From positions 1-27,892 of the forward strand of contig NZ_JPOE01000006.1 in the NCBI RefSeq assembly GCF_000733775.1: a stretch of 27,892 nucleotides of DNA, in the 5' to 3' direction. Source of the DNA: Thiomonas sp. FB-Cd. GTDB taxonomy: Bacteria > Pseudomonadota > Gammaproteobacteria > Burkholderiales > Burkholderiaceae_C. Positions 1-26,876 of the stretch are shown here, in pieces (position 1 is the stretch's first letter; the number at the start of each line of letters is the position of its first letter). Position numbers and translations under genes: made by a program. The notes beneath the pieces were generated by a model. That model saw nothing but the letters and a program-made list of their open reading frames with translations, made no database searches and was not told the DNA's origin.

Positions 1-49
1 TGTCTTGCACCGCCGCCTGTCCGGATGCACTCGTTTGTTCAACACTCAT
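1..49 (-). CDS. 5' end of the 278-residue hypothetical gene (redundant copy, cut by window edge)
   Basis: These bases encode on the minus strand the first 16 residues of the basic hypothetical protein whose full gene lies at 19850-20686. The start ATG is at 49-47. The gene is not truncated biologically; the window simply begins inside it. Confidence 0.85.
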   Translation of the reverse strand, partial: MSVEQTSASGQAAVQD

Positions 50-50
50 G

Positions 51-78
51 AAACGGCATTATATCAAAAATACCGTTT
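51..78 (-). promoter_or_regulatory. Inverted-repeat operator over a -10 box, leaderless start of the 278-residue gene
   Basis: The arms AAACGGCATT (51-60) and AATACCGTTT (69-78) form a 10-bp inverted repeat with one mismatch. On the minus strand a perfect -10 box TATAAT lies at 63-58, inside the repeat. The start codon of the leftward gene begins at 49, only 8 bases beyond the -10, so the transcript would be leaderless or nearly so. No convincing -35 box is seen. A repressor bound here would block the -10 directly. The same site recurs at 20688-20715. Confidence 0.6.
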
Positions 79-142
79 GTAGAACTGCATATATTAAGAT
101 TCCACGTAAGGGCCATGCTGAGGTACACTTGTGGCGTCACTA

Positions 143-234
143 GGCCGCCAAGCCGACACAAAAGATCGTGTTGGCCGCCAAGCCAACCGACGAACGCACT
201 GCAGCGGATGCTGCACAGCAAGGGCCGCCAGCCC
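143..234 (+). other. Three 5' hairpins displaying CGCCA(A) loops (also a GGCCGCCAAGCC repeat)
   Basis: A motif GGCCGCCAAGCC occurs at 143 and 173, and as GGCCGCCAGCC at 223. Each copy folds into a hairpin: GGC/GCC around CGCCAA (143-154), GTTGGC/GCCAAC around CGCCAA (170-187), and GGGC/GCCC around CGCCA (222-234). The flanking stem bases differ between copies but still pair, which argues for selection on RNA structure more than on a DNA iteron. The loop CGCCAA is the exact reverse complement of the TTGGCG loops at 1012-1080. As DNA these could be read as spaced direct repeats near an origin, but the spacing (30 and 50 bp) is irregular. Confidence 0.6.
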
Positions 235-1004
235 GAGCTAGTCCGACGTAGCCGCATGCCTCTAATAGGGCTGGTGCGGCTGCAACGAGCGCTGGGGTGA
301 AATTCCCCTTTCGACTCAATCCCTGGCCGAAAGCTCAGGATTGGGCGACAACGAAACGGGCACGCCGGCAACGGTTGTGTAGCACCTGGCAGCAGCGAAA
401 TGGGAGACGGCTTTCGCCGTCGTTAACACCACGGTGGCCGCAGGCGAAAGCCGGCGGACATCTGCTCGACGTGTGGGCTTCTGAGGGCGCAGAAATGCGT
501 CAGGGTCGCGAGGGGAAACCTGGATCGACTGGCACCATCCGAAGGGTGGGTCGATGTACAGCTCAAGCACGTAAGCCTAGCCCCACGAGGGAGGGTTCGA
601 GAGGTCGTGATGCAATGGATTCACGTGAGGCGTTGAAGTTTCCAGCAAGTACCAGAGAGTTTTTGGAATCTTTTCCTGGGAAACCCGCAAGGGGTAAGGT
701 CTAAGACCTAAGCGAAGAAACGGAGCCGACTGCTAAACGATCGCAGTAGCTGAAGCGCCCGACACTCGCAAGAGAAGGGCATCTGTCTAAGTTGGGAATC
801 TCTGACGGCGGTTTGAGCTGGGATGGCACCTAGCGACGCGCAAGAGAGGGAGATGAGGCAAGTAGGAGTCCTGAAGGCGCAAGCCTTGTCGTGCTGAGCG
901 GAACGGTGCGAACAGGAACCGGCGACGAGCCGGGTACGAAAGCTGAAGTCGGACGAAAAAGTGCAAAGCGGCCTGGCGGCCGCGCGTTGTGTCAGTGACA
1001 GAAA

Positions 1005-1089
1005 CCAGCCTTTGGCGAGGCTGGATTCAGCAGGGCGCGGATTGGCCTTGGCGGGCTATGAAGCGGCATCCGGTTTGGCGACCGGATGC
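1005..1089 (+). other. Three consecutive hairpins with identical TTGGCG loops
   Basis: Hairpin A is CCAGCCT-TTGGCG-AGGCTGG (1005-1024). Hairpin B is TGGCC-TTGGCG-GGCTA (1043-1058, one G-U pair). Hairpin C is GCATCCGGT-TTGGCG-ACCGGATGC (1066-1089). The stems differ completely in sequence and length while the six-base loop is invariant, so the loop is the conserved element. It is complementary to the CGCCAA loops at 146-151 and 176-181 and to five of its six bases at 226-230. This supports kissing-loop contacts; protein recognition of the loop is an alternative. Confidence 0.7.
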
Positions 1090-1387
1090 AAAGTCAACAC
1101 GGCTGGCCCAGAGCATCAGGACAGCTAAGAAAGAGTCCGCGGACAAGTTCTGCGGGATGTTCACTTTGGGGCTCGGCGTTGCGGTAAGGGTGGCTCCCGA
1201 AACTGCGACGTGCGAACGGTGGTGTGCACTGGAACCACGCAAAACACCAGTTCAGCGTGATTGGCTCTCGCCCAGCCTGCCTACGGGCATGAAGGAGGCT
1301 GCTTGCAGCCGTGAGAAGGCTTTGAAGCCACGTCGAGGCTTGCCTCGAGATTGAGATAATCGGGCCTTGTGCCTGTTGATGATCCAC

Positions 1388-1425
1388 ACACCCAGTGCAG
1401 CCTCCAAGCTGCCTGGGTGTTTTTT
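1388..1425 (+). terminator. Strong rho-independent terminator ending the structured RNA
   Basis: ACACCCAG and GCAGC (1388-1401) pair with GCTGC and CTGGGTGT (1408-1420) around the loop CTCCAA. This gives a 13-bp stem with a single bulged T, followed by six T residues (1420-1425). It is oriented for plus-strand transcription. No plus-strand protein gene lies upstream, so the transcript it ends is noncoding. The copy at 22028-22065 is identical. Confidence 0.88.
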
Positions 1426-1640
1426 CATGCGCGGCGGCCAGGCCGGTGGGGTACAGCTGGGCATGCGCAATGCTTCGCCGGTGCGCTCACCACCAGCATG
1501 GCGTGCGACGAACTCGACGCGGCCGCGCGGCCGCGTCGCAGAGGGTCCGCGCGCGGCCAGAACCGCGTCTACAAGGATCGGGCGGCGCAGGCCAGCAGCG
1601 CCCGCGCTTCGGCGGGCGGCACCAGGCTGAACCGCGCCAC
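1426..1640. other. Spacer between RNA terminator and kfrA-like gene, with 24-bp GC palindrome
   Basis: No firm gene is seen. A perfect 24-bp palindrome made only of GC-rich sequence spans 1515-1538, with half-site CGACGCGGCCGC. On the minus strand a GTG codon at 1640-1638 directly abuts the kfrA-like stop. The frame it opens (better read in copy 2, leftward from 22282) starts plausibly for about 60 residues but then runs through the RNA terminator region. It may be a gene remnant truncated by arrival of the RNA locus, or a shadow frame. The two copies differ here by single G undercalls at 1447 and 1577. Confidence 0.4.
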
Positions 1641-2270
1641 CTACTTGCCGGCCGTGGGCAGACGCTCGAGCAGCTCGGCGTTCTGTTGCTGCAACGTCTG
1701 CAGCTTGCCGCGCATCTCCGCTAGTTCTTCGCGAACCTTGATGCCCTGCTCACGCGCAGTGGCCGCGGCGTCGCGCGCCTGGTCGAGGTCTTTGCTCAAC
1801 ACCTTGCTGGCGGCTTTCTCGGCGGCCAGGGCCTGCTTGATCTCGCCGAGCTGAGTTTGCAGGGCGCTTTCCAAGGCCGTGAGGGCCTCCAGGCGGGTTT
1901 TGGCATCCTCCACCTCAACCGTGAGCTGATCGGCCAACTGAGCGGCTTCCAAGCGACTTGCTTCGAGCTCGGCACGCGCGGCCTCCAGCGCTTCGCGCTC
2001 GCTGTTCAGGCGCGCGTTAGCCAGGTCGAGCGCTGCGGCCCATATGTCGGCACCGACCTCGGCCAGGCGCTCCATCACCAAGGGTGGGGCGGGCTCGCGC
2101 AACGGCGTGGACTTGTCGGCCTTGCGCGTGCGCCACTGGGCCATGGCCTCGCTGATAGTCGTGAAGCTGCCGCCGCCGACGGCCTTGCGCACGGCGGCGA
2201 GGGTCGGCGACTGGCCTGCGGCGTCGAGGGCGTCGGCGGCGGCCCAGATTTGTTCGGCGGTGATGGCCAT
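1641..2270 (-). CDS. kfrA: KfrA-like plasmid DNA-binding coiled-coil protein
   Basis: The 209-residue product starts MAITAEQIWAAADAL and has the KfrA_N pattern: an N-terminal DNA-binding region (about 1-60, including KAVGGGSFTTISEAMAQW) followed by a long charged, alanine- and leucine-rich coiled coil (about 80-205). KfrA proteins of IncP-type plasmids bind their own promoter and contribute to stable maintenance. The start at 2270 is chosen because AGGAGA sits seven bases upstream; a longer frame to 2333 lacks a ribosome site. The promoter overlaps a perfect palindrome (2297-2313), which fits autorepression. The Tn3-family transposon inserted only 17 bp upstream of its promoter, so older upstream control may have been cut off. 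Its terminus faces the structured RNA. The name is by domain similarity only. Confidence 0.82.
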   Translation of the reverse strand: MAITAEQIWAAADALDAAGQSPTLAAVRKAVGGGSFTTISEAMAQWRTRKADKSTPLREPAPPLVMERLAEVGADIWAAALDLANARLNSEREALEAARAELEASRLEAAQLADQLTVEVEDAKTRLEALTALESALQTQLGEIKQALAAEKAASKVLSKDLDQARDAAATAREQGIKVREELAEMRGKLQTLQQQNAELLERLPTAGK

Positions 2271-2295
2271 GGGAATCTCCTGTAGCGCGTAATAG

Positions 2296-2323
2296 ATAGT
2301 ATGTATCATACTACAATCTACAA
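2296..2323 (-). promoter_or_regulatory. kfrA-like promoter with overlapping palindromic operator
   Basis: On the minus strand TTGTAG (2323-2318) and TACTAT (2301-2296) are separated by 16 bp. The palindrome TAGTATG-TAT-CATACTA (2297-2313) covers the -10 box. The layout fits autorepression by the KfrA-like protein. Confidence 0.6.
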
Positions 2324-2339
2324 AATACAACAAAGGTCG

Positions 2340-2344
2340 TGGTC
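2340..2344. repeat. Target-site duplication, left copy (TGGTC)
   Basis: TGGTC directly precedes the left inverted repeat and recurs directly after the right one at 8687-8691. A 5-bp duplication is standard for Tn3-family insertion. Confidence 0.9.
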
Positions 2345-2381
2345 GGGTTCTAAGCCAGAACCGCCGAAATTTCCGTCATCC
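2345..2381 (+). repeat. Left terminal inverted repeat of the Tn3-family transposon
   Basis: The outer end reads GGG TTCTAAGCCAGAACC here and GGGG in copy 2 (22987). The missing G is a run undercall, since the right end also has four. It pairs with 8649-8686 with three mismatches (positions 14, 27 and 36). Confidence 0.92.
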
Positions 2382-5300
2382 CAGCTCCAGCCCCGCCACG
2401 AGCGCATCCAGGTCGATCATCTTGCCGTCGCTCTGGAAGGTGTAATGCCCGTTCAGCAGGATGTGCCGCCAGGCCGCCGGCGATATCTGGGTCAGGAGAG
2501 CGTGCGCCTTGGCGTTGCCGCTCGCCTCGTACTTCATCAGCAGCCGCGAGAGGATGGCCGAGTTGTAGAAGATGACCGCGTTGGCGATCAGCCTGGCGCA
2601 CTGGTTGCTGATCTCAATTTCGATGTCGGTGCGCCCGGTCAATTCCTTCTTGCCGCCGACCTGGGCGATGGTTGAGCGTAGCTGGTGATAGGACTCGATG
2701 CGGTTCTGTGAGCGGTGAACGTTGCGCTCCAGTTGCGGATCGCGCAGGTAGCGCAGCGTGTAGATGCTGCGGATGAGCTTGTCGAACTCGAACACCGCGC
2801 GCCGCGTGGGTTCGGCGCGGTGTAGGTGCATAGCTTGCGGATCAGCGTGCCCTGCGTCATCTCCTTCAGTCCGAGCGTGGCGACAATCTGGTCGAGGTTC
2901 GGCTTCTCGCTGACTATGAGATCGCGGTCGATTCTCCCGGCCGGCCGGATCAGGCACTGATCGTACAGCGCCGGATCGTCGGCACTGTAGAGTTCCTTCA
3001 ACTGATCGCCAAGGTCGGTGAAGCGCGGCTCGAAACGCAGGCCGAACCAGTGCAGGATAGCGAAGTTGGCCTTGTTGACGCTGTGCATGTCGCCGGTGAT
3101 CGCGGTCGGCACGATGTCCGACGTGTTGCGATACCAGATGTCGAACACGTGATGGGCCTCGTAATCGTGCGCGCCGATCAGGTAGCCGTTGAGCGGCACG
3201 TGGTTGCACAGCAGCGTGTAGGCGACCACGCCCTTGCCGCGCCCAAAGTATTTGCGCGAGTGGCGCGCTTTCACGGTCGGCCGCTCGACGCCGAATTTCT
3301 GACCATCGACGGCACCGTACAGTGCATCGAGGTCGAACGAGTAGTACGGGAAGATCGGCAGCGCGGCGATGGCGTTGCTGATGCAGTCGTTGGCCGCGTG
3401 CAGCGTTGCGTGGCGCAGGTACTGTTGGTAGGCGCTCTCCAGCACGTGGTACGGGATGTCGCTGGTGCGTGCCATGACCTGGTTGCCGTGGTTCATCGCC
3501 TGCGCGATGATGACCGCCATCAGGCTGTCGGCGTCGGCGACCTTCTTCGCATAGCGCGGCTGCAAAGGCGTCAGCGCCGACAGGAACTGGCACTGGCCGT
3601 TGACGAAGCGGAACACGTCGGCCACGTCGCAGAACGGCAGTTGCTCGTAGAACGCCTTCTCGCGCGCCTTCTGGTTCTCGCCCTTGGGCTTGCGCCATGT
3701 CAGCTTCTGCGTGTCCTTGTCGTATTCTAGGTGCGTCAGCTTGCCCTGCTTCAGCTCGCGGTTGAAGGCCAGCCACTGAGCGCGCAGCTCGGTCGCGAGC
3801 GCATCGAGCTGGGCATCGAGTGGCTGCCGCAGGAACGGGATGTCGATCTGCGCCAGCACGGCGGCCTTCTCATCCAGCGAAACCAGCTCGTCGGAAAAAT
3901 GCCGGTGCTGCAAGCTGTCGTCGAGGTAGAGTTCACCCGACTGGAAGCGCTTCCTGACCTGGCGGTACAGCCAGAACTCGTAGCGGTCGGCATGCAGGTC
4001 CGTCGGCTTGCCATCGGCATCGAAGGTCAGCAGGTACGGTCGCAAGCGTTTCGGCAGCGTGGCCGCTGGACATTCGGCGAGCGGCCGTTGCGATAGGCGC
4101 TGCTGTTTGGCGAACACGTCCTTGGCCCAGGCCAGCGCCACGAGCCACGGGCTGCCCGGATCAGTGCCAGCGAGGTCGAGCGCGACATACAGCGGCCGAA
4201 GATGGCGGCGGATGCGCTCAGCCAGGCCGTCCACCGCCTGCCAGTGCAAAGCCAGCTTGCTCACCGGCTTCACGCTCATGCGCTGCGCGGTGGTTTGCAG
4301 CGTATCGCGGGGCATGATTTTGTAGGCGCGCTGGCGCACATCGCCGAACGGCGTGGGATCGGGCACGCTGTCGTCGATGTAAAGCGACAGCAGGCGGCCG
4401 ACCTGCGGTGTGTCTTGCTGACGGCGCACCTGCTCGGCGACAAAGGATTGCTTTGCGCCCGCACTGCTTTCGTCCTCCAACTGCTTCATGTGGTAGGCCA
4501 TCGCATCGACCAGGTTGTCGGAAAGCTGCCGGTAGCGCACCCAGGCATAGCAAAGCAGGTAGAGGTAGGTCTGATCGGCCTTCAGGTTGCGTAGATCGTG
4601 GACGGTGTAGAAGTTCGCCAGGCTGGCGTAGTACAGCAGATTCTGCTGCGAGACGCCGAGCTTGGGCAGCAGCGCCTTGGCGATCCGGTGCAGCGGCTCC
4701 AGCGTGGCGCGCTTTTCGCGTTCGCGGGCCATCTGACGCCAGCCAAAGTCCTTGGCGTCCTGCTTGAGCGCCGCCAATTGCGACAGGGTGTCGTCACGCA
4801 CTAGAAGCCGACCCAGCGCGGCCTTGGCCGATTCGTCCAACACTTCCGACAGCAGGCCAGCCAGCCGCCGACGCTCGGCGGACAGGGCTTCGCTCACCAG
4901 CTCTTGCAGGGTGGTATAGCCGGGCCGGATGATCTTGTGCTCGTTTAGCCAGACGATCAGCTCGGCGGCGATGAACCCCGGCATCACGTCGCGCCGCACG
5001 GTCTGCGCGGCCTGCTGCGCGAGCTGCGCCAGGAACTCGGCCGCCCACGGCCGGTAGCCGAACAGATCGGCAATCCACTCGCGCTGGGTGTAGTGCTCGT
5101 GCTTGGAGATTGGCTTGTGCTCGAAGGACTCGCCGTGGAAGTAGCGGCTCAGCACGAAGGCGCAATCGTGCTCGACCTCACTCCAGTCGAAGCGGAAGAA
5201 GGCATGCTTGGCCTTGAAGTAACCGATCTGCAAGATGCAATAGACCTGGGCATGGAGACCAGGCCGGCTGCTGGCGAGCGCCAGTTCGGTTTCAGTCAAC

Positions 5301-5404
5301 GCCAAGTATTCCAGCCGCTGGGCGTCGTCGAAGTCCGGCAGGCCGTACAGGGCTTCCTGCTCGGCGTCCGACAGGACGGTCAATCGTTCGCTCTTGGTCG
5401 TCAT
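2376..5404 (-). CDS. tnpA: Tn3-family transposase TnpA (copy 1, frame broken by a missing G near 2808)
   Basis: This is the DDE transposase that binds the 38-bp ends and performs replicative transposition. Here the frame is broken by one missing G in the run at 2808-2810; copy 2 (23019-26048) has GGGG at that place and an open frame of 1009 residues, close to the roughly 1000 usual for Tn3 transposases. The break is therefore most likely a sequence error. The start ATG overlaps the tnpR stop as ATGA, so the two genes are probably translationally coupled. The stop lies inside the left inverted repeat. Domain details are given under copy 2. Confidence 0.93.
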
Positions 5405-5994
5405 CGCGATGACGCTCCACGAGAGCCCGTCCAACCAACCCGTGCCAGGGTCTCGATCAGCGTGGTTCGCTTGACGCCGAAGTTGCGGCACACCGCCGCC
5501 TTGGACATGCCGCCATCGAGCGCAGCGACGATGGCCTCCAGCTTCTCGCCGGTGATCGCCTGCGGCCGGCCGCCGATCCGGCCGCGTTTGCGGGCGGCAG
5601 CCAGACCGGCGACGACACGTTCCTGGATCAAGGCGCGTTCGTACTGCGCGAGCGCGCCGAACACCTGGAACAGAAACTCGCCCGAGGGCGTCGTGGTATC
5701 CAGGTTCTCCGTCAGCGAGCGGAACGCCACCTGCTTTTTCTTGAGCGAGGTCACGATGGCGAGCAAGTGCGACAACGAACGGCCGAGCCGGTCGAGCTTC
5801 CACACGACCAACACGTCGCCAGGGCGAACGAATTCGAGCGCCCGCGCCAGGCCCGCGCGGTCGTCCTTCGCGCCGGAAGCATGATCCTCGAACAGATGCC
5901 GCGCATCGACGCCGACGGCGAGCAGCGCATCGCGCTGCAAGTTCGTGCTCTGGCGGTCGGAGTCCGACGACACGCGCATGTAACCTACCAACAT
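5401..5994 (-). CDS. tnpR: Serine resolvase TnpR of the Tn3-family transposon
   Basis: The 197-residue product begins MLVGYMRVSSDSDRQSTNLQ, with the nucleophile serine in the VSS motif. It continues with the resolvase core (GDVLVVWKLDRLGRSL, GEFLFQVFGALAQYER) and a C-terminal helix-turn-helix (about 150-190, KAAVCRNFGVKRTTLIETLA). It resolves cointegrates by recombination at res. The internal ATG at 5994 is preferred over a start at 6057 because the longer form would run through the res-like repeats, and family members start close to the GYxRVSS motif. No good ribosome site precedes either start. Its stop overlaps the tnpA start. It is divergent from the ParD/ParE pair. Confidence 0.9.
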   Translation of the reverse strand: MLVGYMRVSSDSDRQSTNLQRDALLAVGVDARHLFEDHASGAKDDRAGLARALEFVRPGDVLVVWKLDRLGRSLSHLLAIVTSLKKKQVAFRSLTENLDTTTPSGEFLFQVFGALAQYERALIQERVVAGLAAARKRGRIGGRPQAITGEKLEAIVAALDGGMSKAAVCRNFGVKRTTLIETLARVGWTGSRGASSR

Positions 5995-5995
5995 A

Positions 5996-6140
5996 AGCGG
6001 AAAACCATTAAGACGAGGTTTCCGTATGGTAGCGTCTGGCGACAGAGTTTTCCGCACAATTTTGCGGCCACTCGGAGGTTGGTGCAGAGGACCGTTGAAG
6101 GCCTGTCGAAAAACAAATGTTTTCCGACAGGCCTTGGCCT
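5996..6140. other. Probable res site of the transposon
   Basis: The spacer between tnpR and the toxin-antitoxin pair holds several GGAAAAC/GTTTTCC repeats (5999, about 6048) and a nearly perfect 38-bp palindrome at 6098-6135. The palindrome core has TGTCG and CGACA ends around an A/T-rich centre, like a resolvase crossover subsite. The position just upstream of tnpR is where res lies in this family. The palindrome could alternatively act as a two-way terminator between divergent operons, but there is no T run after the stem. Confidence 0.5.
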
Positions 6141-6232
6141 AGCGCACGCCCGCCTTGCAGCGTTCTGTGAATAGCGCTTAGTAATGACGGCGTATATACT
6201 TTGTTAGTATCAAGTGGCAGGAGGCCCCGATC

Positions 6233-6511
6233 ATGTCAAAACAAGCCGTTTTCACGATGAAGCTGGAGCCTGAGTTGCGCGCCGAGTTTATGGCCGAAGC
6301 CGAGGCGGCCCATCGCCCGGCGTCGCAAGTGCTGCGCGAGCTGATGCGCGAGTTCGTTCAGCGCCAGCGCGAGTCGCGCGAGTACGACGAGTTCCTGCGC
6401 CGCAAGGTCGAAGCCGGCCGGGCTTCGATGCGCGCTGGATTGGGGCGGTCGAACGATGAAGTTGAGGCCGAATTCGCCGCACGGCGTGCCAGTGTGGCGA
6501 GCCAGGCGTGA
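6233..6511 (+). CDS. parD: ParD-like ribbon-helix-helix antitoxin
   Basis: A 92-residue protein starting MSKQAVFTMKLEPELRAEF. The N-terminal strand and two helices (about 4-45) match the ribbon-helix-helix fold that binds the operator; the charged C-terminal tail (RREYDEF-like, 55-92) would wrap the toxin. AGGAGG lies nine bases upstream of the ATG. A short repeat ATACT-TTGTT-AGTAT (6196-6210) precedes it and may be the operator, with TATACT as a possible -10. Its stop overlaps the GTG start of the toxin (GTGA). Toxin-antitoxin pairs beside the resolvase gene are known in several Tn3-family groups and are thought to belong to the transposition module. Confidence 0.82.
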   Translation: MSKQAVFTMKLEPELRAEFMAEAEAAHRPASQVLRELMREFVQRQRESREYDEFLRRKVEAGRASMRAGLGRSNDEVEAEFAARRASVASQA

Positions 6512-6792
6512 GGGTTGTTTGGACGCCCGAAGCGCAGCAAGACCGTGCCGATGTGTGGGACTACATCGCAGCCGACAATCCGCGCGCGGCGGCCCGGATG
6601 GATGAGATTTTCAGCGACGCGGCCGCCCGCTTGATCCAGCACCCCATGCTGGGCAAGCCGGGAAAGATTCCCGGGACCCGCGAGTTGATCCCGCACGAAA
6701 GCTATCGCCTGGTGTATCAGATCGACGGCGAAACGGTGTGGATACTGACGCTGGTTCATACTGCCCGCCTGTGGCCGCCTGTGCGCGATTAA
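6508..6792 (+). CDS. parE: ParE/RelE-superfamily toxin
   Basis: A 94-residue protein, MRVVWTPEAQQDRADVWDYI, with the ParE/RelE pattern: an N-terminal strand, two helices (AQQDRADVWDYIAADNPRAAARMDEIF), and C-terminal strands (ELIPHESYRLVYQIDGETVWILTLVHTARLWP). ParE toxins of this type poison DNA gyrase; RelE relatives cut mRNA, and the sequence alone does not decide. The GTG start overlaps the antitoxin stop by four bases, so translation is coupled. In copy 2 (27152-27434) the frame is broken by two single-base losses in C and G runs near the contig end, which look like sequence errors. Confidence 0.83.
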   Translation: MRVVWTPEAQQDRADVWDYIAADNPRAAARMDEIFSDAAARLIQHPMLGKPGKIPGTRELIPHESYRLVYQIDGETVWILTLVHTARLWPPVRD

Positions 6793-7198
6793 GATATGAT
6801 CATGGCAACAATGAAACGGCGCGTTGACAGACTGCTTTCGAGCCAGACCGCGGTCGGCGGCAGGCGGCCAGTTGCGGACGGTCAAGCATCTTCCCGGTAG
6901 CGGACGTTCAATAGTGTCTCTGACCTGCTTCGCTCCCTCTATGAAGGGAGGTCGCTGGCCCATCCGCGCACTCACAGCCTGCCAGTAGGCGCAAATTGGC
7001 AGCGCTCCGTCCGGCAGCGCACAGACTGCGGCCGTACGTCCGCGTAGGTTCGCTTCAGCAGTTTCGATTCGAAAGTTCAATGTGATTGCTGCGGGCGGTC
7101 GTCGCAGTTGCGCGGAGGCGATGATGCACAAGCACGGGATCGGCAGATAGGTTCTTCGAAGCTGCAAGAGTTAAAACATTCACACATGAAAGATTGAA
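6793..7198. other. Noncoding spacer before the chlorite dismutase gene
   Basis: About 400 bp without a credible gene. It holds a consensus TTGACA (6823-6828) without a matching -10, and two inverted repeats: CTCCCT/AGGGAG (about 6940-6957) and CTGCCA/TGGCAG (about 6979-7002). GTTAAAAC just before the cld-like gene (GTTAGAAAC in copy 2) resembles the GTTRRRY core site that begins a gene cassette. No integron integrase or clear attI is seen. Copy 2 has many single-base losses here. Confidence 0.4.
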
Positions 7199-7759
7199 AT
7201 GGATACACGATTATTTGCTTTCGTCGGCGCAGACATTGGCCCTTGGCGGATTGTCAGGGCCGAAACGAGAGTTGGCGAGCCCCTGCCTGAAGCCAAAAGG
7301 CTCAACGTCGTATCCGCTTCAGAGTTGCAGTCTGAAACCAATGCACCCTGGATACTTCGTGGAATAACCAGCAATGAACGATATGTCATGCGCGCAGAGA
7401 AGAATGAAATTGTAGCGAAGCAGCAAGGTCTGGCGCGCCCAGAAGCAACGTGCGGTGCGCTAATACCGATCCGGAAGAACGCAGCTTGGTGGGAGCTCAC
7501 GCAAGACGAACGCCGGAGCGTTTTCGAACAGTCGAAGCACGTCCAAATCGGGCTTCAGTATTTGCCTGCAGTAGCGCGCAAGCTCCACCACTGCCGCGAC
7601 CTCTCAGAGAATGAACCGTTCGATTTTCTGAATTGGTTCGAATACGCGCCAATTCATGAGGTTGAGTTCAACAGGCTGCTTTCCGAACTGCGTGCGTCAG
7701 AGGAATGGAAATACGTCGACCGAGAAGTCGATATTCGTCTTACGCAAGCACAGGTCTAA
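7199..7759 (+). CDS. cld: Dimeric-type (clade 2) chlorite dismutase
   Basis: Chlorite dismutases are haem enzymes that turn chlorite into chloride and O2. The 186-residue product matches the short, dimeric group typified by the Nitrobacter winogradskyi enzyme: GPWRIV near the start, RPEATCGALIPIRKNAAWWE (80-99), QDERRSVFE, and YLPAVARKLHHCRDL followed by the FDFLxWFEYAP motif (141-151). His114 and Arg127 fall at the positions of the proximal haem ligand and catalytic distal arginine, with the same 13-residue spacing. There is no signal peptide, so it should act in the cytoplasm. The TAA stop lies inside an attC-like site, as in integron gene cassettes. G+C is lower than in tnpA. A small cupin gene follows. 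The role is inferred as detoxification, since no (per)chlorate reductase is present. Confidence 0.87.
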   Translation: MDTRLFAFVGADIGPWRIVRAETRVGEPLPEAKRLNVVSASELQSETNAPWILRGITSNERYVMRAEKNEIVAKQQGLARPEATCGALIPIRKNAAWWELTQDERRSVFEQSKHVQIGLQYLPAVARKLHHCRDLSENEPFDFLNWFEYAPIHEVEFNRLLSELRASEEWKYVDREVDIRLTQAQV

Positions 7760-14271: not shown

Positions 14272-14679
14272 GTGGATACCGTCAGCAGGCAACGGCGCTC
14301 CGAGATCATGGGGCGCGTCCGATCGAAGGACACGGGCCCCGAGCTCATCGTACGACGGCTGGTACATGCGATGGGCTTCCGCTACCGCCTGCATGGCAAA
14401 GATCTACCTGGACGGCCAGATCTGGTGTTCCGCCGCCGAGGCAAGGTCATCTTCGTACACGGCTGCTTCTGGCATCGACACGACGGCTGCGTGCTAGCGC
14501 GGCTGCCGAAGTCACGGACGGACTTTTGGCTCCCAAAGCTCGAAGCGAACAAGGAACGAGATGAGCGGAACAGGCGAGATCTGAAGCGATCTGGCTGGAA
14601 GGTTTTGACGGTGTGGGAATGTCAGCTCAGCCGGGTCGAGCTGTTACGAAAAAAGATCAGGAGATTTCTCGATGCGTAG
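14272..14679 (+). CDS. vsr: Vsr-type very-short-patch mismatch endonuclease
   Basis: Vsr nicks next to T:G mismatches left by deamination of 5-methylcytosine and so protects methylated sites from C-to-T mutation. The 135-residue product has the family residues at nearly the same numbers as E. coli Vsr: GRPDLVF with D50, and FVHGCFWHRH with H63, H68 and H70. LPKSRTDFWLPKLEANKERD and the C-terminal WECQL are also present. The GTG start follows the regulator stop without a gap. The last eight bases overlap the methyltransferase gene, so the three genes form one operon. Confidence 0.92.
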   Translation: MDTVSRQRRSEIMGRVRSKDTGPELIVRRLVHAMGFRYRLHGKDLPGRPDLVFRRRGKVIFVHGCFWHRHDGCVLARLPKSRTDFWLPKLEANKERDERNRRDLKRSGWKVLTVWECQLSRVELLRKKIRRFLDA

Positions 14680-15868
14680 CGTTGAATTGTTCGCCGGAGC
14701 TGGCGGCCTAGCGATGGGAATGTCCCGCGCCGGCTTCCGACACGCCGCAGTCGTCGAATGGGATCACGACGCTTGCGAGACATTTCGGCATAACCAAGCA
14801 CTGCACGCCCACGACGTTGATGAGTGGCCACTCTTCGAGGGCGACGTGCGCGAGTTTGACTTAGCCGGCGTCGGCCGTGACGTGATGGTCATCTCAGGCG
14901 GGCCGCCATGCCAACCCTTTTCGATGGGCGGCAAGGCCCGCGGCTTTCGTGACGAGCGCGACATGTTCCCCCAAGCGGTTCGCGCCGTGCGAGAGCTTCG
15001 GCCGAGAGCGTTCATATTCGAAAACGTGAAGGGCCTGCTCCGGCAGTCCTTCGCGTCGTACTTCGAGTACATCCTCCTGCAACTCTCGCACCCTGAACTC
15101 ACGCGGCGAAAGAGCGAAACTTGGGATCGCCATCGCTCTCGGCTTGAACGCCATCACACATCAAACACCGAACGGGCAACCTACAACGTAGTCTTCCGAC
15201 TGCTCAACGCTGCTAACTACGGGGTACCTCAGCGGCGCGAGCGCGTCTTCCTGGTCGGGTTCCGCTCCGACCTTGGCATCCAATGGAACTTTCCCGAGGA
15301 AACGCATAGCGAGAATGCGCTACTCCGGGATCAGTGGGTAACGGGGGAGTATTGGGAAAGGCATCGAGTCGCGAAGCGAAACAGGCCGCTTCTCTCGCCT
15401 CGTCTTGAAGGCCGCATCGCCAAGTTGCGTGAAGGCGCTTTCTTCGACGCCGCCTTCCCGTGGAGAACGGTCCGTGACGCGATCTGCGGCCTCCCAGATC
15501 CGGAAAAAAATCCGCGGAACGGCATCCCGAACCACCAGTTCAATCCCGGAGCGCGCAGCTACCCAGGTCACACGGGAAGCCCACTAGATGAACCAGCCAA
15601 GACATTGAAAGCGGGCGATCATGGCGTGCCAGGGGGTGAGAACATGCTAGCCCGCCTGGATGGCTCAGTTCGCTATTTCACTGTGCGAGAGGCCGCGCGT
15701 CTGCAGACTTTCCCGGATGACTACATCTTCCGTGGCTCCTGGACGGAAACCATGCGCCAGCTCGGCAACGCAGTGCCGGTTCGCCTGGCGGAAGTGATCG
15801 CTGGCTCGGTTGCCGAAACGCTGCGGTCGTCCGAAACTGGAATAGGCGGAGGACTCGCGGCCGCGTGA
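14672..15868 (+). CDS. DNA (cytosine-5) methyltransferase
   Basis: A 398-residue C5 methyltransferase with motifs in the standard order: I ELFAGAGGLAMG (5-16), IV GGPPCQPFS with catalytic C80, VI ENVKG (117-121), VIII YGVPQRRERVFLVG (183-196), the target-recognition region (about 200-330), IX REAARLQTFPDDY (339-351), and X QLGNAVPV (363-370). It protects the host from the nuclease encoded downstream. AGGAG lies eight bases before the ATG. Some SacII sites (CCGCGG, for example 1137, 12576 and 15512) exist on the plasmid, but the real target cannot be read from the sequence. Confidence 0.95.
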   Translation: MRSVELFAGAGGLAMGMSRAGFRHAAVVEWDHDACETFRHNQALHAHDVDEWPLFEGDVREFDLAGVGRDVMVISGGPPCQPFSMGGKARGFRDERDMFPQAVRAVRELRPRAFIFENVKGLLRQSFASYFEYILLQLSHPELTRRKSETWDRHRSRLERHHTSNTERATYNVVFRLLNAANYGVPQRRERVFLVGFRSDLGIQWNFPEETHSENALLRDQWVTGEYWERHRVAKRNRPLLSPRLEGRIAKLREGAFFDAAFPWRTVRDAICGLPDPEKNPRNGIPNHQFNPGARSYPGHTGSPLDEPAKTLKAGDHGVPGGENMLARLDGSVRYFTVREAARLQTFPDDYIFRGSWTETMRQLGNAVPVRLAEVIAGSVAETLRSSETGIGGGLAAA

Positions 15869-16008
15869 CGGTTGGACACCCCTTCCTGCTTGACGCGATG
15901 AATGGATAATCTCGGAGATCAATCACCGAGAAGCTCCTTGCCCCCACCGAAGCACAGCGCCGCGCGTATAGCCACGGCACCGAGCCTTCCAGTCCAGGTC
16001 ACCTGGTG

Positions 16009-16779
16009 ATGGAAGGCTTCGCCGAATTCGAGTTCGATTTGCCCCGCGCTTTGAAGGCCGAGCTCATCGGACTACTCGACGGGATGGAAACGGGCCCTCT
16101 TCAACAGGATGTCACGTCGGAAGTACCTGAAGCACAGGGCGTCTATCAGCTCTTCTATGGCAACACCTTGGTGTACGTTGGCAAAACCGACGCGGAAGCC
16201 GGGCTTCGCACACGGCTATCTCGCCATGCGCGAAAGATCCTGCACCGCCCGACACTGACGGGCGCTGTCAGCTTCAAGGCTGTACGAATCATGGTTTTCA
16301 CGGCCATGGACCTGGAAACGCAGCTCATCAAGCACTATCGCGAGACTGCGAACGGGGCGGCCGCTTGGAACGGAAGCGGGTTCGGCTCTAACGACCCTGG
16401 TCGCCAACGCGAGACCACCAACAAGAGCCCCGAGGGCTTCGACGCGCAACACCCGATAAATATCGACCTTCCTGCGCAACTGATCCCACCTGGCACAAAG
16501 ACCGCAGCGGCGGCACTGGCTGAGCTCAAGGTCGCGCTGCCTTACACGCTGCGCTATGAAACCCTGCGGAATGCTCAGGGTCGCGCGCAGCGCGGGCAAC
16601 CTCATGCCGATCTGCTGACAGCGAACGTAACCATCCCAGAGGGCTCGCAAACAGTGCGGGGACTGATGCGAATCATCCGCACGGCGCTGGGCACCGAGTG
16701 GCAGGCGACCGCCTTTGTGAGCCATGTCATCCTCTACAAGGAACAGCATTCCTACCAGTACGGCGAAGTCATCATCTAA
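16009..16779 (+). CDS. Eco29kI-like GIY-YIG restriction endonuclease
   Basis: A 256-residue protein with a GIY-YIG core: GVYQLFYGNTLVYVGKT (about 45-61) contains the two tyrosine motifs, RLSRHARK gives the paired Arg and His, DLETQLIKHY the metal-binding Glu, and WNGSGFGSNDPGRQRE the asparagine region seen in Eco29kI-type enzymes. That family cuts a GC-rich palindrome (CCGCGG for Eco29kI) and pairs with a C5 methyltransferase, as here. The start is uncertain: GTG 16006 and ATG 16009 are adjacent, and the open frame extends upstream to about 15909 without an ATG. The C-terminal 90 residues are longer than in Eco29kI (214 residues). The gap to the methyltransferase is 140 bp. Confidence 0.82.
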   Translation: MEGFAEFEFDLPRALKAELIGLLDGMETGPLQQDVTSEVPEAQGVYQLFYGNTLVYVGKTDAEAGLRTRLSRHARKILHRPTLTGAVSFKAVRIMVFTAMDLETQLIKHYRETANGAAAWNGSGFGSNDPGRQRETTNKSPEGFDAQHPINIDLPAQLIPPGTKTAAAALAELKVALPYTLRYETLRNAQGRAQRGQPHADLLTANVTIPEGSQTVRGLMRIIRTALGTEWQATAFVSHVILYKEQHSYQYGEVII

Positions 16780-19849: not shown

Positions 19850-20686
19850 TCACAGGTTCGGCGGCGCCTCGCTCACCTCTTGGGCATTTTTCCGTCCCTT
19901 CGGGATGGATTGCATGAGATCTGACCATCTCATTCCAACGTCTGGAAGACGCCTGACATAGCCGATTGTCGGAGGAATCTTCGGAGGATCATCGGTTTTA
20001 CTTCGGGTCCGTTTCCACTCCGCCTTGACAATCGCCCACAATTTTTTGACCTGCTCACGCACTCCCGCGAAACCTGGGCTCCTAGATAGCGAGTTAATGA
20101 GCTGCTCGAGGACTGCGTCCTGCCTCCCTCGAATGGCAAATACGACCTGGTTGTGCAAGAGCCGGTACTGCTCGCGGGTGTACTTCCAGGTCAGGACCGG
20201 CGCATTTGCACCAGGCTTGGTCATGCGCACGAGCTCATAGCCAGCCAAGGTGATCCGCGCCTCGAACGGATTGAGCCAGCGCTCCTCGTGACAGATCGTC
20301 TTGCCAGGAAAGTAGAAAAGCGTCCACTGCACAAACCCAGTTTGCTCGTCGAGCCAACCCAGCCATCTCGCCACATCCTCTCCAGCCCGTCGGGCACGAT
20401 GATCGGCGATCTTCCCTGGGTTGAGCACGTACCGACTGGCGAACTTTTGGGCCAGGAATGGCGCCTTGCCCAACGGGATCGAACCTGCGATGTAGTGCAA
20501 GGCACCGGCACGCACCGCATCGCCGAGGCGCTGCATGTACACCGTCTTCTTCGTGAAGATGAACGGGTTCGACGACGGCACCCCGCGGTACGCGGACGCG
20601 CCCTTCTCGCCACTTGTACGAGCTCGTTTCGGCGGCATGTCTTGCACCGCCGCCTGTCCGGATGCACTCGTTTGTTCAACACTCAT
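19850..20686 (-). CDS. Unrecognised basic 278-residue plasmid protein, divergent from the structured RNA
   Basis: The product starts MSVEQTSASGQAAVQDMPPK and has a basic, low-complexity N-terminus (1-40), then a region with VYMQRLGDAVRAGALHYIAG, WLGWLDEQTGFVQWTLFYFP and YELVRMTKPGANAPVLTWKY, and a basic tail (KAEWKRTRSKTDDPPK). I recognise no family or catalytic motif; there is no membrane segment. The ATG at 20686 is only 8 bases from a TATAAT box, so the mRNA is probably leaderless; the operator palindrome (20688-20715) overlaps that box. It is divergently transcribed from the giant RNA with about 80 bp between, so it is a candidate partner or regulator. The assembly joint falls inside its 5' end. 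Confidence 0.7.
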   Translation of the reverse strand: MSVEQTSASGQAAVQDMPPKRARTSGEKGASAYRGVPSSNPFIFTKKTVYMQRLGDAVRAGALHYIAGSIPLGKAPFLAQKFASRYVLNPGKIADHRARRAGEDVARWLGWLDEQTGFVQWTLFYFPGKTICHEERWLNPFEARITLAGYELVRMTKPGANAPVLTWKYTREQYRLLHNQVVFAIRGRQDAVLEQLINSLSRSPGFAGVREQVKKLWAIVKAEWKRTRSKTDDPPKIPPTIGYVRRLPDVGMRWSDLMQSIPKGRKNAQEVSEAPPNL

Positions 20687-20687
20687 G

Positions 20688-20715
20688 AAACGGCATTATA
20701 TCAAAAATACCGTTT
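20688..20715 (-). promoter_or_regulatory. Operator/-10 region of the 278-residue gene (copy at the intact gene)
   Basis: Same sequence as 51-78: arms AAACGGCATT and AATACCGTTT with TATAAT inside on the minus strand, next to the start ATG at 20686. Confidence 0.6.
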
Positions 20716-20766
20716 GTAGAACTGCATATATTAAGATTCCACGTAAGGGCCATGCTGAGGTACACT

Positions 20767-22065
20767 TGTGGCGTCACTAGGCCGCCAAGCCGACACAAAA
20801 GATCGTGTTGGCCGCCAAGCCAACCGACGAACGCACTGCAGCGGATGCTGCACAGCAAGGGCCGCCAGCCCGAGCTAGTCCGACGTAGCCGCATGCCTCT
20901 AATAGGGCTGGTGCGGCTGCAACGAGCGCTGGGGGTGAAATTCCCCTTTCGACTCAATCCCTGGCCGAAAGCTCAGGATTGGGCGACAACGAAACGGGCA
21001 CGCCGGCAACGGTTGTGTAGCACCTGGCAGCAGCGAAATGGGAGACGGCTTTCGCCGTCGTTAACACCACGGTGGCCGCAGGCGAAAGCCGGCGGACATC
21101 TGCTCGACGTGTGGGCTTCTGAGGGCGCAGAAATGCGTCAGGGTCGCGAGGGGAAACCTGGATCGACTGGCACCATCCGAAGGGGTGGGTCGATGTACAG
21201 CTCAAGCACGTAAGCCTAGCCCCACGAGGGAGGGTTCGAGAGGTCGTGATGCAATGGATTCACGTGAGGCGTTGAAGTTTCCAGCAAGTACCAGAGAGTT
21301 TTTGGAATCTTTTTCCTGGGAAACCCGCAAGGGGTAAGGTCTAAGACCTAAGCGAAGAAACGGAGCCGACTGCTAAACGATCGCAGTAGCTGAAGCGCCC
21401 GACACTCGCAAGAGAAGGGCATCTGTCTAAGTTGGGAATCTCTGACGGCGGTTTGAGCTGGGATGGCACCTAGCGACGCGCAAGAGAGGGAGATGAGGCA
21501 AGTAGGAGTCCTGAAGGCGCAAGCCTTGTCGTGCTGAGCGGAACGGTGCGAACAGGAACCGGCGACGAGCCGGGTACGAAAGCTGAAGTCGGACGAAAAA
21601 GTGCAAAGCGGCCTGGCGGCCGCGCGTTGTGTCAGTGACAGAAACCAGCCTTTGGCGAGGCTGGATTCAGCAGGGCGCGGATTGGCCTTGGCGGGCTATG
21701 AAGCGGCATCCGGTTTGGCGACCGGATGCAAAGTCAACACGGCTGGCCCAGAGCATCAGGACAGCTAAGAAAGAGTCCGCGGACAAGTTCTGCGGGATGT
21801 TCACTTTGGGGCTCGGCGTTGCGGTAAGGGTGGCTCCCGAAACTGCGACGTGCGAACGGTGGTGTGCACTGGAACCACGCAAAACACCAGTTCAGCGTGA
21901 TTGGCTCTCGCCCAGCCTGCCTACGGGCATGAAGGAGGCTGCTTGCAGCCGTGAGAAGGCTTTGAAGCCACGTCGAGGCTTGCCTCGAGATTGAGATAAT
22001 CGGGCCTTGTGCCTGTTGATGATCCACACACCCAGTGCAGCCTCCAAGCTGCCTGGGTGTTTTTT
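20767..22065 (+). ncRNA. Candidate giant structured noncoding RNA (copy 2)
   Basis: Same locus as 130-1425 with three run-length differences (GGGGG at about 20931, GGGG at about 21182, TTTTT at about 21308). The six complementary-loop hairpins are at 20780-20871 and 21645-21729; they and the terminator (22028-22065) are identical to copy 1. The longer G run at 20931 lies in the GGGG/CCCC hairpin. Confidence 0.72.
22028..22065 (+). terminator. Intrinsic terminator of the structured RNA (copy 2)
   Basis: Identical to 1388-1425: 13-bp stem and six T residues. Confidence 0.88.
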
Positions 22066-22282
22066 CATGCGCGGCGGCCAGGCCGGTGGGGGTACAGCTG
22101 GGCATGCGCAATGCTTCGCCGGTGCGCTCACCACCAGCATGGCGTGCGACGAACTCGACGCGGCCGCGCGGCCGCGTCGCAGAGGGTCCGCGCGCGGCCA
22201 GAACCGCGTCTACAAGGATCGGGGCGGCGCAGGCCAGCAGCGCCCGCGCTTCGGCGGGCGGCACCAGGCTGAACCGCGCCAC

Positions 22283-22912
22283 CTACTTGCCGGCCGTGGG
22301 CAGACGCTCGAGCAGCTCGGCGTTCTGTTGCTGCAACGTCTGCAGCTTGCCGCGCATCTCCGCTAGTTCTTCGCGAACCTTGATGCCCTGCTCACGCGCA
22401 GTGGCCGCGGCGTCGCGCGCCTGGTCGAGGTCTTTGCTCAACACCTTGCTGGCGGCTTTCTCGGCGGCCAGGGCCTGCTTGATCTCGCCGAGCTGAGTTT
22501 GCAGGGCGCTTTCCAAGGCCGTGAGGGCCTCCAGGCGGGTTTTGGCATCCTCCACCTCAACCGTGAGCTGATCGGCCAACTGAGCGGCTTCCAAGCGACT
22601 TGCTTCGAGCTCGGCACGCGCGGCCTCCAGCGCTTCGCGCTCGCTGTTCAGGCGCGCGTTAGCCAGGTCGAGCGCTGCGGCCCATATGTCGGCACCGACC
22701 TCGGCCAGGCGCTCCATCACCAAGGGTGGGGCGGGCTCGCGCAACGGCGTGGACTTGTCGGCCTTGCGCGTGCGCCACTGGGCCATGGCCTCGCTGATAG
22801 TCGTGAAGCTGCCGCCGCCGACGGCCTTGCGCACGGCGGCGAGGGTCGGCGACTGGCCTGCGGCGTCGAGGGCGTCGGCGGCGGCCCAGATTTGTTCGGC
22901 GGTGATGGCCAT
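22283..22912 (-). CDS. kfrA: KfrA-like protein (copy 2)
   Basis: Same 209-residue protein as at 1641-2270, with the same ribosome site and the promoter/operator at about 22938-22965. No difference from copy 1 within the gene was seen. Confidence 0.82.
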   Translation of the reverse strand: MAITAEQIWAAADALDAAGQSPTLAAVRKAVGGGSFTTISEAMAQWRTRKADKSTPLREPAPPLVMERLAEVGADIWAAALDLANARLNSEREALEAARAELEASRLEAAQLADQLTVEVEDAKTRLEALTALESALQTQLGEIKQALAAEKAASKVLSKDLDQARDAAATAREQGIKVREELAEMRGKLQTLQQQNAELLERLPTAGK

Positions 22913-23018
22913 GGGAATCTCCTGTAGCGCGTAATAGATAGTATGTATCATACTACAATCTACAAAATACAACAAAGGTCGTGGTCGGGGTTCTAAGCCA
23001 GAACCGCCGAAATTTCCG

Positions 23019-26000
23019 TCATCCCAGCTCCAGCCCCGCCACGAGCGCATCCAGGTCGATCATCTTGCCGTCGCTCTGGAAGGTGTAATGCCCGTTCAGC
23101 AGGATGTGCCGCCAGGCCGCCGGCGATATCTGGGTCAGGAGAGCGTGCGCCTTGGCGTTGCCGCTCGCCTCGTACTTCATCAGCAGCCGCGAGAGGATGG
23201 CCGAGTTGTAGAAGATGACCGCGTTGGCGATCAGCCTGGCGCACTGGTTGCTGATCTCAATTTCGATGTCGGTGCGCCCGGTCAATTCCTTCTTGCCGCC
23301 GACCTGGGCGATGGTTGAGCGTAGCTGGTGATAGGACTCGATGCGGTTCTGTGAGCGGTGAACGTTGCGCTCCAGTTGCGGATCGCGCAGGTAGCGCAGC
23401 GTGTAGATGCTGCGGATGAGCTTGTCGAACTCGAACACCGCGCGCCGCGTGGGGTTCGGCGCGGTGTAGGTGCATAGCTTGCGGATCAGCGTGCCCTGCG
23501 TCATCTCCTTCAGTCCGAGCGTGGCGACAATCTGGTCGAGGTTCGGCTTCTCGCTGACTATGAGATCGCGGTCGATTCTCCCGGCCGGCCGGATCAGGCA
23601 CTGATCGTACAGCGCCGGATCGTCGGCACTGTAGAGTTCCTTCAACTGATCGCCAAGGTCGGTGAAGCGCGGCTCGAAACGCAGGCCGAACCAGTGCAGG
23701 ATAGCGAAGTTGGCCTTGTTGACGCTGTGCATGTCGCCGGTGATCGCGGTCGGCACGATGTCCGACGTGTTGCGATACCAGATGTCGAACACGTGATGGG
23801 CCTCGTAATCGTGCGCGCCGATCAGGTAGCCGTTGAGCGGCACGTGGTTGCACAGCAGCGTGTAGGCGACCACGCCCTTGCCGCGCCCAAAGTATTTGCG
23901 CGAGTGGCGCGCTTTCACGGTCGGCCGCTCGACGCCGAATTTCTGACCATCGACGGCACCGTACAGTGCATCGAGGTCGAACGAGTAGTACGGGAAGATC
24001 GGCAGCGCGGCGATGGCGTTGCTGATGCAGTCGTTGGCCGCGTGCAGCGTTGCGTGGCGCAGGTACTGTTGGTAGGCGCTCTCCAGCACGTGGTACGGGA
24101 TGTCGCTGGTGCGTGCCATGACCTGGTTGCCGTGGTTCATCGCCTGCGCGATGATGACCGCCATCAGGCTGTCGGCGTCGGCGACCTTCTTCGCATAGCG
24201 CGGCTGCAAAGGCGTCAGCGCCGACAGGAACTGGCACTGGCCGTTGACGAAGCGGAACACGTCGGCCACGTCGCAGAACGGCAGTTGCTCGTAGAACGCC
24301 TTCTCGCGCGCCTTCTGGTTCTCGCCCTTGGGCTTGCGCCATGTCAGCTTCTGCGTGTCCTTGTCGTATTCTAGGTGCGTCAGCTTGCCCTGCTTCAGCT
24401 CGCGGTTGAAGGCCAGCCACTGAGCGCGCAGCTCGGTCGCGAGCGCATCGAGCTGGGCATCGAGTGGCTGCCGCAGGAACGGGATGTCGATCTGCGCCAG
24501 CACGGCGGCCTTCTCATCCAGCGAAACCAGCTCGTCGGAAAAATGCCGGTGCTGCAAGCTGTCGTCGAGGTAGAGTTCACCCGACTGGAAGCGCTTCCTG
24601 ACCTGGCGGTACAGCCAGAACTCGTAGCGGTCGGCATGCAGGTCCGTCGGCTTGCCATCGGCATCGAAGGTCAGCAGGTACGGTCGCAAGCGTTTCGGCA
24701 GCGTGGCCGCTGGACATTCGGCGAGCGGCCGTTGCGATAGGCGCTGCTGTTTGGCGAACACGTCCTTGGCCCAGGCCAGCGCCACGAGCCACGGGCTGCC
24801 CGGATCAGTGCCAGCGAGGTCGAGCGCGACATACAGCGGCCGAAGATGGCGGCGGATGCGCTCAGCCAGGCCGTCCACCGCCTGCCAGTGCAAAGCCAGC
24901 TTGCTCACCGGCTTCACGCTCATGCGCTGCGCGGTGGTTTGCAGCGTATCGCGGGGCATGATTTTGTAGGCGCGCTGGCGCACATCGCCGAACGGCGTGG
25001 GATCGGGCACGCTGTCGTCGATGTAAAGCGACAGCAGGCGGCCGACCTGCGGTGTGTCTTGCTGACGGCGCACCTGCTCGGCGACAAAGGATTGCTTTGC
25101 GCCCGCACTGCTTTCGTCCTCCAACTGCTTCATGTGGTAGGCCATCGCATCGACCAGGTTGTCGGAAAGCTGCCGGTAGCGCACCCAGGCATAGCAAAGC
25201 AGGTAGAGGTAGGTCTGATCGGCCTTCAGGTTGCGTAGATCGTGGACGGTGTAGAAGTTCGCCAGGCTGGCGTAGTACAGCAGATTCTGCTGCGAGACGC
25301 CGAGCTTGGGCAGCAGCGCCTTGGCGATCCGGTGCAGCGGCTCCAGCGTGGCGCGCTTTTCGCGTTCGCGGGCCATCTGACGCCAGCCAAAGTCCTTGGC
25401 GTCCTGCTTGAGCGCCGCCAATTGCGACAGGGTGTCGTCACGCACTAGAAGCCGACCCAGCGCGGCCTTGGCCGATTCGTCCAACACTTCCGACAGCAGG
25501 CCAGCCAGCCGCCGACGCTCGGCGGACAGGGCTTCGCTCACCAGCTCTTGCAGGGTGGTATAGCCGGGCCGGATGATCTTGTGCTCGTTTAGCCAGACGA
25601 TCAGCTCGGCGGCGATGAACCCCGGCATCACGTCGCGCCGCACGGTCTGCGCGGCCTGCTGCGCGAGCTGCGCCAGGAACTCGGCCGCCCACGGCCGGTA
25701 GCCGAACAGATCGGCAATCCACTCGCGCTGGGTGTAGTGCTCGTGCTTGGAGATTGGCTTGTGCTCGAAGGACTCGCCGTGGAAGTAGCGGCTCAGCACG
25801 AAGGCGCAATCGTGCTCGACCTCACTCCAGTCGAAGCGGAAGAAGGCATGCTTGGCCTTGAAGTAACCGATCTGCAAGATGCAATAGACCTGGGCATGGA
25901 GACCAGGCCGGCTGCTGGCGAGCGCCAGTTCGGTTTCAGTCAACGCCAAGTATTCCAGCCGCTGGGCGTCGTCGAAGTCCGGCAGGCCGTACAGGGCTTC

Positions 26001-26048: not shown

Positions 26049-26638
26049 CGCGATGACGCTCCACGAGAGCCCGTCCAACCAACCCGTGCCAGGGTCTCGA
26101 TCAGCGTGGTTCGCTTGACGCCGAAGTTGCGGCACACCGCCGCCTTGGACATGCCGCCATCGAGCGCAGCGACGATGGCCTCCAGCTTCTCGCCGGTGAT
26201 CGCCTGCGGCCGGCCGCCGATCCGGCCGCGTTTGCGGGCGGCAGCCAGACCGGCGACGACACGTTCCTGGATCAAGGCGCGTTCGTACTGCGCGAGCGCG
26301 CCGAACACCTGGAACAGAAACTCGCCCGAGGGCGTCGTGGTATCCAGGTTCTCCGTCAGCGAGCGGAACGCCACCTGCTTTTTCTTGAGCGAGGTCACGA
26401 TGGCGAGCAAGTGCGACAACGAACGGCCGAGCCGGTCGAGCTTCCACACGACCAACACGTCGCCAGGGCGAACGAATTCGAGCGCCCGCGCCAGGCCCGC
26501 GCGGTCGTCCTTCGCGCCGGAAGCATGATCCTCGAACAGATGCCGCGCATCGACGCCGACGGCGAGCAGCGCATCGCGCTGCAAGTTCGTGCTCTGGCGG
26601 TCGGAGTCCGACGACACGCGCATGTAACCTACCAACAT
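26045..26638 (-). CDS. tnpR: Serine resolvase TnpR (copy 2)
   Basis: Same 197-residue resolvase as at 5401-5994. The res-like region follows at about 26640-26784. Confidence 0.9.
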   Translation of the reverse strand: MLVGYMRVSSDSDRQSTNLQRDALLAVGVDARHLFEDHASGAKDDRAGLARALEFVRPGDVLVVWKLDRLGRSLSHLLAIVTSLKKKQVAFRSLTENLDTTTPSGEFLFQVFGALAQYERALIQERVVAGLAAARKRGRIGGRPQAITGEKLEAIVAALDGGMSKAAVCRNFGVKRTTLIETLARVGWTGSRGASSR

Positions 26639-26876
26639 AAGCGGAAAACCATTAAGACGAGGTTTCCGTATGGTAGCGTCTGGCGACAGAGTTTTCCGCA
26701 CAATTTTGCGGCCACTCGGAGGTTGGTGCAGAGGACCGTTGAAGGCCTGTCGAAAAACAAATGTTTTCCGACAGGCCTTGGCCTAGCGCACGCCCGCCTT
26801 GCAGCGTTCTGTGAATAGCGCTTAGTAATGACGGCGTATATACTTTGTTAGTATCAAGTGGCAGGAGGCCCCGATC

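Follow-up and report, generated by a model that had tools for sequence, protein, structure and literature searches.

A large RNA and a divergent gene on a Thiomonas plasmid contig

We analysed a 27,892-nt stretch of DNA from Thiomonas sp. FB-Cd (contig NZ_JPOE01000006.1; hereafter the window), in which positions 130–1425 of the + strand encode a large RNA and positions 19850–20686 of the − strand hold acpG, the gene for the 278-amino-acid (aa) protein AcpG. Taking RNA and protein together, we identify the locus with a probability of roughly 0.93 as a circularly permuted (CP) group II ribozyme that has its own terminator and is paired with a divergent acpG. The first codons of acpG are also found at positions 1–50, the contig start, and the open reading frames (ORFs) overlapping 130–1425 are short mechanical ones.

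The two ends of the contig repeat each other: 7258 bases at its start (1–7258) align to 7255 at its end (20638–27892) with 99.7% identity, 19 gap openings and no mismatch. This ~7.26-kb end redundancy, in which the two ends differ by indels only, probably reflects an untrimmed circular contig, the plasmid itself probably being a circle of ~20.6 kb. Every feature within the redundant ends appears twice in the contig, including the RNA, which recurs on the + strand at 20737–22080; given the end overlap, we infer that these two occurrences are probably one place and that there is one RNA locus.

Domain organization of the RNA

The conserved CP group II RNA domain, as delimited by RNAalifold and covariation in 53 homologues, extends from ~241 to 954 on the + strand and is bounded by a helix between 241–247 and 948–954. 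Its 5′ end holds domain 5 (D5; 250–281), recognized from the alignment and from cross-matches to the Rfam family RF00029, with an AGC triad at 250–252, five pairs and a UN bulge at 272–273. The triad is kept almost throughout the 53 sequences (A in 51, G in 53 and C in 51), and the bulged U is present in 53/53. Domain 6 (D6; 287–317) was placed with the consensus structure of R1, a covariance model built on 126 alignment positions from the 5′ end, and carries a bulged branch-site A at 314 that is likewise kept in 53/53.

Downstream of D6 come a predicted 3′ splice site, the ‘AY’-like AAU at 318–320 (U in 53/53 at column 95 and A in 48/53 at column 94), a 22-nt linker at 321–342, the predicted circular product, and a predicted 5′ splice site, the GUGYG-like GGGCGAC at 343–349, which is found in 53/53 and begins domain 1. 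Measured from after AAU to before GGGCGAC, the linker varies from 13 to 135 nt over the 51 measurable of the 53 sequences, with three longer than 100 nt; by the same rule, counted by eye on the alignment, it is 32 nt in the previously described pPNAP05 RNA, whose published circle has the same length (PMC8637638).

Three further domains are each supported by a covarying helix and are named according to their order. Domain 1 (D1; 343–794) is closed near 349–352/791–794 by a long-range helix (columns 127–130/544–547), followed by domain 2 (D2; 799–847; columns 552–556/598–602) and domain 3 (D3; 854–947; columns 609–614/686–691).

The flanks, 130–240 and 955–1425, fall outside the conserved model. 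The 5′ flank (130–240) consists of variable hairpins, probably the P1/P2 region to judge by position only, and the string GGCCGCCA(A)GCC occurs in it three times, at 143, 173 and 223. A structured 3′ part at 955–1387, seen in the single-sequence fold, includes a probable domain 4 (D4), and the RNA ends in an intrinsic terminator at 1388–1425. A sequence-only reading of this DNA had placed the whole RNA at 130–1425 and described the terminator as a 13-bp stem with six T residues. The terminator is indeed there, with one bulged T in its stem and six T after it, although a consensus terminator scanner did not list this hairpin; of the proposed extent, only ~241–954 belongs to the conserved part.

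Covariation supports a structured plus-strand RNA

The + strand of 130–1425 has a folding energy of −557.7 kcal/mol over 1296 nt in a single-sequence fold, but covariation is the stronger evidence for a structured RNA. Of 74 cores found, 71 were at least 700 nt long; removal of redundancy left 54 of them, and 53 entered the alignment. Left out were the three shorter RNAs, near-duplicates with an identity of 90% or higher, and one homologue (L005) because an IS256 sits within its stretch.

RNAalifold predicted 176 pairs from the alignment, with standard pairs in 88.8% of cells, and at 114 of these pairs at least three standard pair types each occurred in at least two sequences. When column pairs were ranked by a G-statistic with average product correction, the highest 20 all fell inside this one structure, as did 47/50, 65/80 and 71/100 at greater depths; the ranking makes no use of the structure, which was itself, however, predicted from this alignment. 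Paired positions contained 1166 G-U cells versus 206 A-C cells, and the + strand is therefore the one that folds as RNA.

Assignment to the circularly permuted group II class

No match to this RNA was found in the whole window with Rfam 15 at gathering scores, GOLLD, ROOL and OLE included, and a search of window 1–1700 at E values up to 10 gave only two chance matches to other families and none to group II introns. R1, run on 60 genomes including the window’s own, gave 10 matches, two in the window and eight in three other genomes, and cmscan assigned all eight of the latter, at the same positions, to RF00029, group II intron domain 5–6. These cross-matches led us to the class described by Roth et al. 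2021 (PMC8637638), and with both in view we abandoned a reading as a new class of RNA.

As described there, CP group II RNAs carry D5–D6 5′ of D1–D4, with AY- and GUGYG-like splice sites in reversed order and typically <100 nt apart. The window RNA shows the same organization: D5- and D6-like domains with the triad, pairs and bulge of D5 and the bulged A of D6 stand 5′ of D1, the predicted splice sites are reversed, and covarying helices mark the domains that by their order are D1, D2 and D3. The canonical group II order, with D5–D6 at the 3′ end, was not found, as D5–D6 occupy 250–317 and D1 starts at 343. R1 also recovers two published members that are not part of the model, the RNAs of pPNAP05 (113.8 bits) and pTT8 (34.9 bits, E = 8.6e-8), and the window RNA is 58.7% identical to that of pPNAP05 over 807 columns.

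At the level of sequence we therefore regard membership in the CP group II class as established. The class is already published, as ‘T-large’ RNA, and the window RNA is a new member of it. The sequence-only reading had proposed a large plus-strand structured RNA on a plasmid, which structure and conservation bear out, and had suggested that its class might be undescribed, which gives way to the class of Roth et al. The covariation and the homologues that it had proposed to look for were both found, the latter in many proteobacteria from plasmid and genome collections, whereas a cmscan of the Rfam models it had named, with GOLLD, ROOL, OLE and group II introns among them, returned no match to this RNA. 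Among the results that would refute it, it had listed a match to a group II intron across the greater part of the region; such a match exists in the form of domains in permuted order, while the Rfam models themselves reported none.

Relatives on plasmids and in genomes

A blastn search of 72,556 plasmid records gave nine with a match, none of them under an annotated feature (the gene table being incomplete), and searches seeded with other members reached Escherichia coli, Acinetobacter, Halomonas, Komagataeibacter, Novacetimonas and others. Because Rfam 15 did not recognize the class in our scans, such RNAs sit in unannotated gaps of many plasmid records. We also took the conserved middle of the RNA as the source of a DNA pattern with two gaps. 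This pattern had two matches in the window versus 0 in 100 shuffles, matched 22/29 loci (including the window’s own two loci and repeated records) and picked out 52 stretches of the genome collection. Although the pattern does not include the 5′ core, this core lay just upstream and in the same orientation in 51/52 of these stretches, the exception (L073) ending at the locus edge. Neither the pattern in viral contigs nor a blastn search of window 1–1700 against 50,697 phage records gave a match.

All titles of the 52 genome loci are proteobacterial except for two metagenome bins, labelled Verrucomicrobiaceae (L035) and Oscillospiraceae (L069), and the 53 aligned sequences are mostly from alpha-, beta- and gammaproteobacteria. 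Among E. coli genomes the RNA was found in 21/5426, on two kinds of plasmid: 15 records of 27–35 kb, which are exactly those with an acpG match, and seven of ~3 kb without one, with both kinds present in one genome.

Several individual loci are worth recording. An E. coli RepL plasmid of 3,082 bp (L024) has a long match to the CP group II RNA and no acpG, and its strain also holds a 34-kb plasmid with a type IV secretion system (T4SS) that carries both. Two copies of the RNA are present on Thiothrix unzii pTunz1, at ~17.1–17.8 kb and 32.5–33.2 kb, and an nhaA-I riboswitch occurs at 4801–4851 of the locus on Acinetobacter plasmid pAb242_12. In an Acidovorax metagenome bin (L067) the RNA and a gene for a type II/IV secretion ATPase (T2SSE, MshEN) lie within ~4 kb of each other; their contig, of 253 kb, is perhaps chromosomal.

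AcpG, the adjoining protein

A tblastn search with the 278-aa window protein gave matches in 26 plasmid records, and among the 52 genome stretches 37 were matched by an AcpG profile and 35 by BLAST clustering. Over 71 loci, some of which end near the RNA where AcpG is missing, AcpG is the one widely shared neighbour: it is present at 49 and on the opposite strand in 48 of those 49, and the next cluster reaches nine loci. On pTT8, a single gene among 104 ORFs was significant with the profile (E = 7e-14); it is divergent from the RNA, and its position relative to the description of Roth et al. identifies it as TTHC007. This profile match and the linkage assign the window protein to the AcpG (TTHC007) family. 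In PMC8637638, AcpG is described as a CP group II-associated protein of unknown function, with no homology detected to any known protein class. Among the papers listed in a literature search, which did not cover bioRxiv, that paper was the sole relevant report, and a later one on AcpG may exist.

At five loci of acetic acid bacteria (L025, L045, L061, L065 and L076), another uncharacterised family stands on the opposite strand upstream of the RNA, where AcpG is otherwise found; hhalign showed no relation between the two families.

Sequence comparison placed AcpG in no family of Pfam or NCBIfam, an AcpG profile search of the PDB found nothing, and hhalign against seven reverse transcriptases (RTs) returned 0.1%, so that similarity to the group II RT/maturase was not seen in sequence profiles. 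Two AlphaFold models of AcpG, both derived from the same sequences, show a likeness to entries for the group II intron RT/maturase and the spliceosome, which is new here and is one of predicted models; Foldseek searches of the PDB and BFVD gave nothing significant. The YxDD motif is absent from the A4 consensus and from the invariant columns of AcpG. On balance we lean towards a derivation of AcpG from an RT, and the protein is best read, as far as the models go, as a catalytically dead RT-derived palm–thumb protein that may serve as a maturase-like helper of ribozyme folding or action. If AcpG is indeed a stripped RT/maturase, the intron-encoded protein of this class has not been lost but stands next door, an arrangement that in bacteria would parallel the spliceosome with its RT-like core.

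Predicted reaction and biological role

In vitro, CP group II RNAs yield small circles and branched RNA; in Polaromonas naphthalenivorans the RNA is expressed, but its processed form was not seen in cells, and the biological role of these ribozymes is described as not known (PMC8637638). We infer the activity of the window copy, its biological use and the part played by AcpG as follows. If the window copy follows the chemistry published for the class, the A at 314 in D6 would act as branch site and attack the 5′ splice site at 342/343, and the freed 3′ end would then attack the 3′ splice site at 320/321. The products would be an RNA circle of 22 nt and a branched, T-shaped RNA in which the active site is retained. 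Through the reverse reaction the branched RNA could act on other RNA or DNA, and AcpG might help the ribozyme to fold or act, as a maturase does.

One further reading is that ribozyme and AcpG form a DNA-transfer module in place of relaxase and origin of transfer (oriT), in which the ribonucleoprotein (RNP) nicks DNA by reverse splicing and passes it to a coupling protein. MOB-suite typed as non-mobilizable all 26 AcpG-matching records and 34/35 records matching the E. coli RNA, compared with 1701 of the best 5000 Rep_3 matches and 50/148 plasmids with the E. coli VirB4 family (a set in which the ten CP group II plasmids of E. coli are themselves counted). Non-mobilizable typing is thus also common within the same T4SS VirB4 family, and the argument from relaxases is therefore weaker there; the record sets overlap and are not independent, 14 of the 35 RNA records are Acinetobacter matches of 68–76 bases, and the absence of a typed relaxase may mean an untyped one. 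A VirD4-like coupling gene clusters near the RNA in 9/71 loci, while the other 62 have no such member in the stretch examined; of the two members tested, that of L004 has Pfam coupling-protein matches above cut-offs and that of L028 only a sub-cut-off match to TIGR03743. E. coli pFHI_NMBU_11_03 carries a VirB set adjoined by acpG and no annotated relaxase, and its strain also has a 3-kb plasmid with the RNA and no acpG, but the large plasmid shares a genome with only one of the seven 3-kb plasmids, and no T4SS genes were found among the 20 window ORFs scanned. We consider the transfer module unlikely. Quite unlikely, too, is the fuller version in which AcpG is a fossil group II RT cut down to palm and thumb, placed outside the intron in a Prp8-like RNP, and serves plasmid transfer through reverse-splicing DNA cuts in the relaxase’s place.

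That the RNA acts in plasmid replication or copy-number control would fit its distribution in E. coli, where 0/23 places are on chromosomes, and the clustering of a Rep_3-type gene nearby in 8/71 loci. Elsewhere, however, 15/52 genome loci lie on contigs >200 kb. Plasmid pMtBL replicates from OriR at 1918–2759 (PMC10033558), and its CP group II RNA lies at ~3105–3905, which excludes that RNA from the replication origin; the pTT8 ribozyme could be deleted with replication kept, as cited by Roth et al. (PMC8637638) with the caveat of a chromosomal copy. A replication role is accordingly very unlikely.

A dead, functionless remnant of a scrambled canonical group II intron might be suspected from the seemingly futile back-splicing and from the canonical group II intron RT genes that are also present in the window’s own genome, but catalytic positions kept in 51–53 of the 53 sequences and compensatory changes throughout make this highly improbable. 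Barely credible is an unrelated giant RNA that would form a new class beside GOLLD, ROOL and OLE, perhaps as an assembly made of RNA only. The size, ornate structure, mobile-element setting and lack of an Rfam match would suit it, but the D5/D6 motifs, the RF00029 cross-matches and the matches to published CP group II loci speak against it, as does the absence of matches to the DNA pattern in viral contigs and to window 1–1700 in 50,697 phage records.

Other features of the plasmid

Tn3-family transposase domains are split over two overlapping frames at 2376–5803 of the window, with a second occurrence from 23019; the frame break could be genuine or could stem from a long-read indel. At 14672–16779, a C5 cytosine methylase is followed by a sub-cut-off match to an Eco29kI-like endonuclease, a probable restriction-modification pair by sequence.

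Comparison with known systems

With GOLLD, ROOL and OLE the window RNA has in common that it is large, ornate, bacterial and of a kind often found on mobile elements, and differs in having no Rfam match. D5, D6 and D1-type elements are shared with canonical group II introns (RF00029), from which it differs in that D5–D6 stand 5′ of D1 and that no intron-encoded protein was found inside the RNA. The adjoining protein agrees with the AcpG (TTHC007) family in its profile match and divergent position. This analysis adds the identification of the window RNA, a broad collection of its relatives, among which covariation is very strong, and a lead from predicted structure as to what AcpG does.

The closest counterpart is the published CP group II RNA (PMC8637638). 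The window copy has a predicted linker of 22 nt, against published circles of 32, 35, 50 and 86 nt, and shares with the published RNAs the domain order, the D5 triad and UN bulge, the bulged A of D6, the reversed splice sites with a short linker, the divergent acpG and the location on a plasmid.
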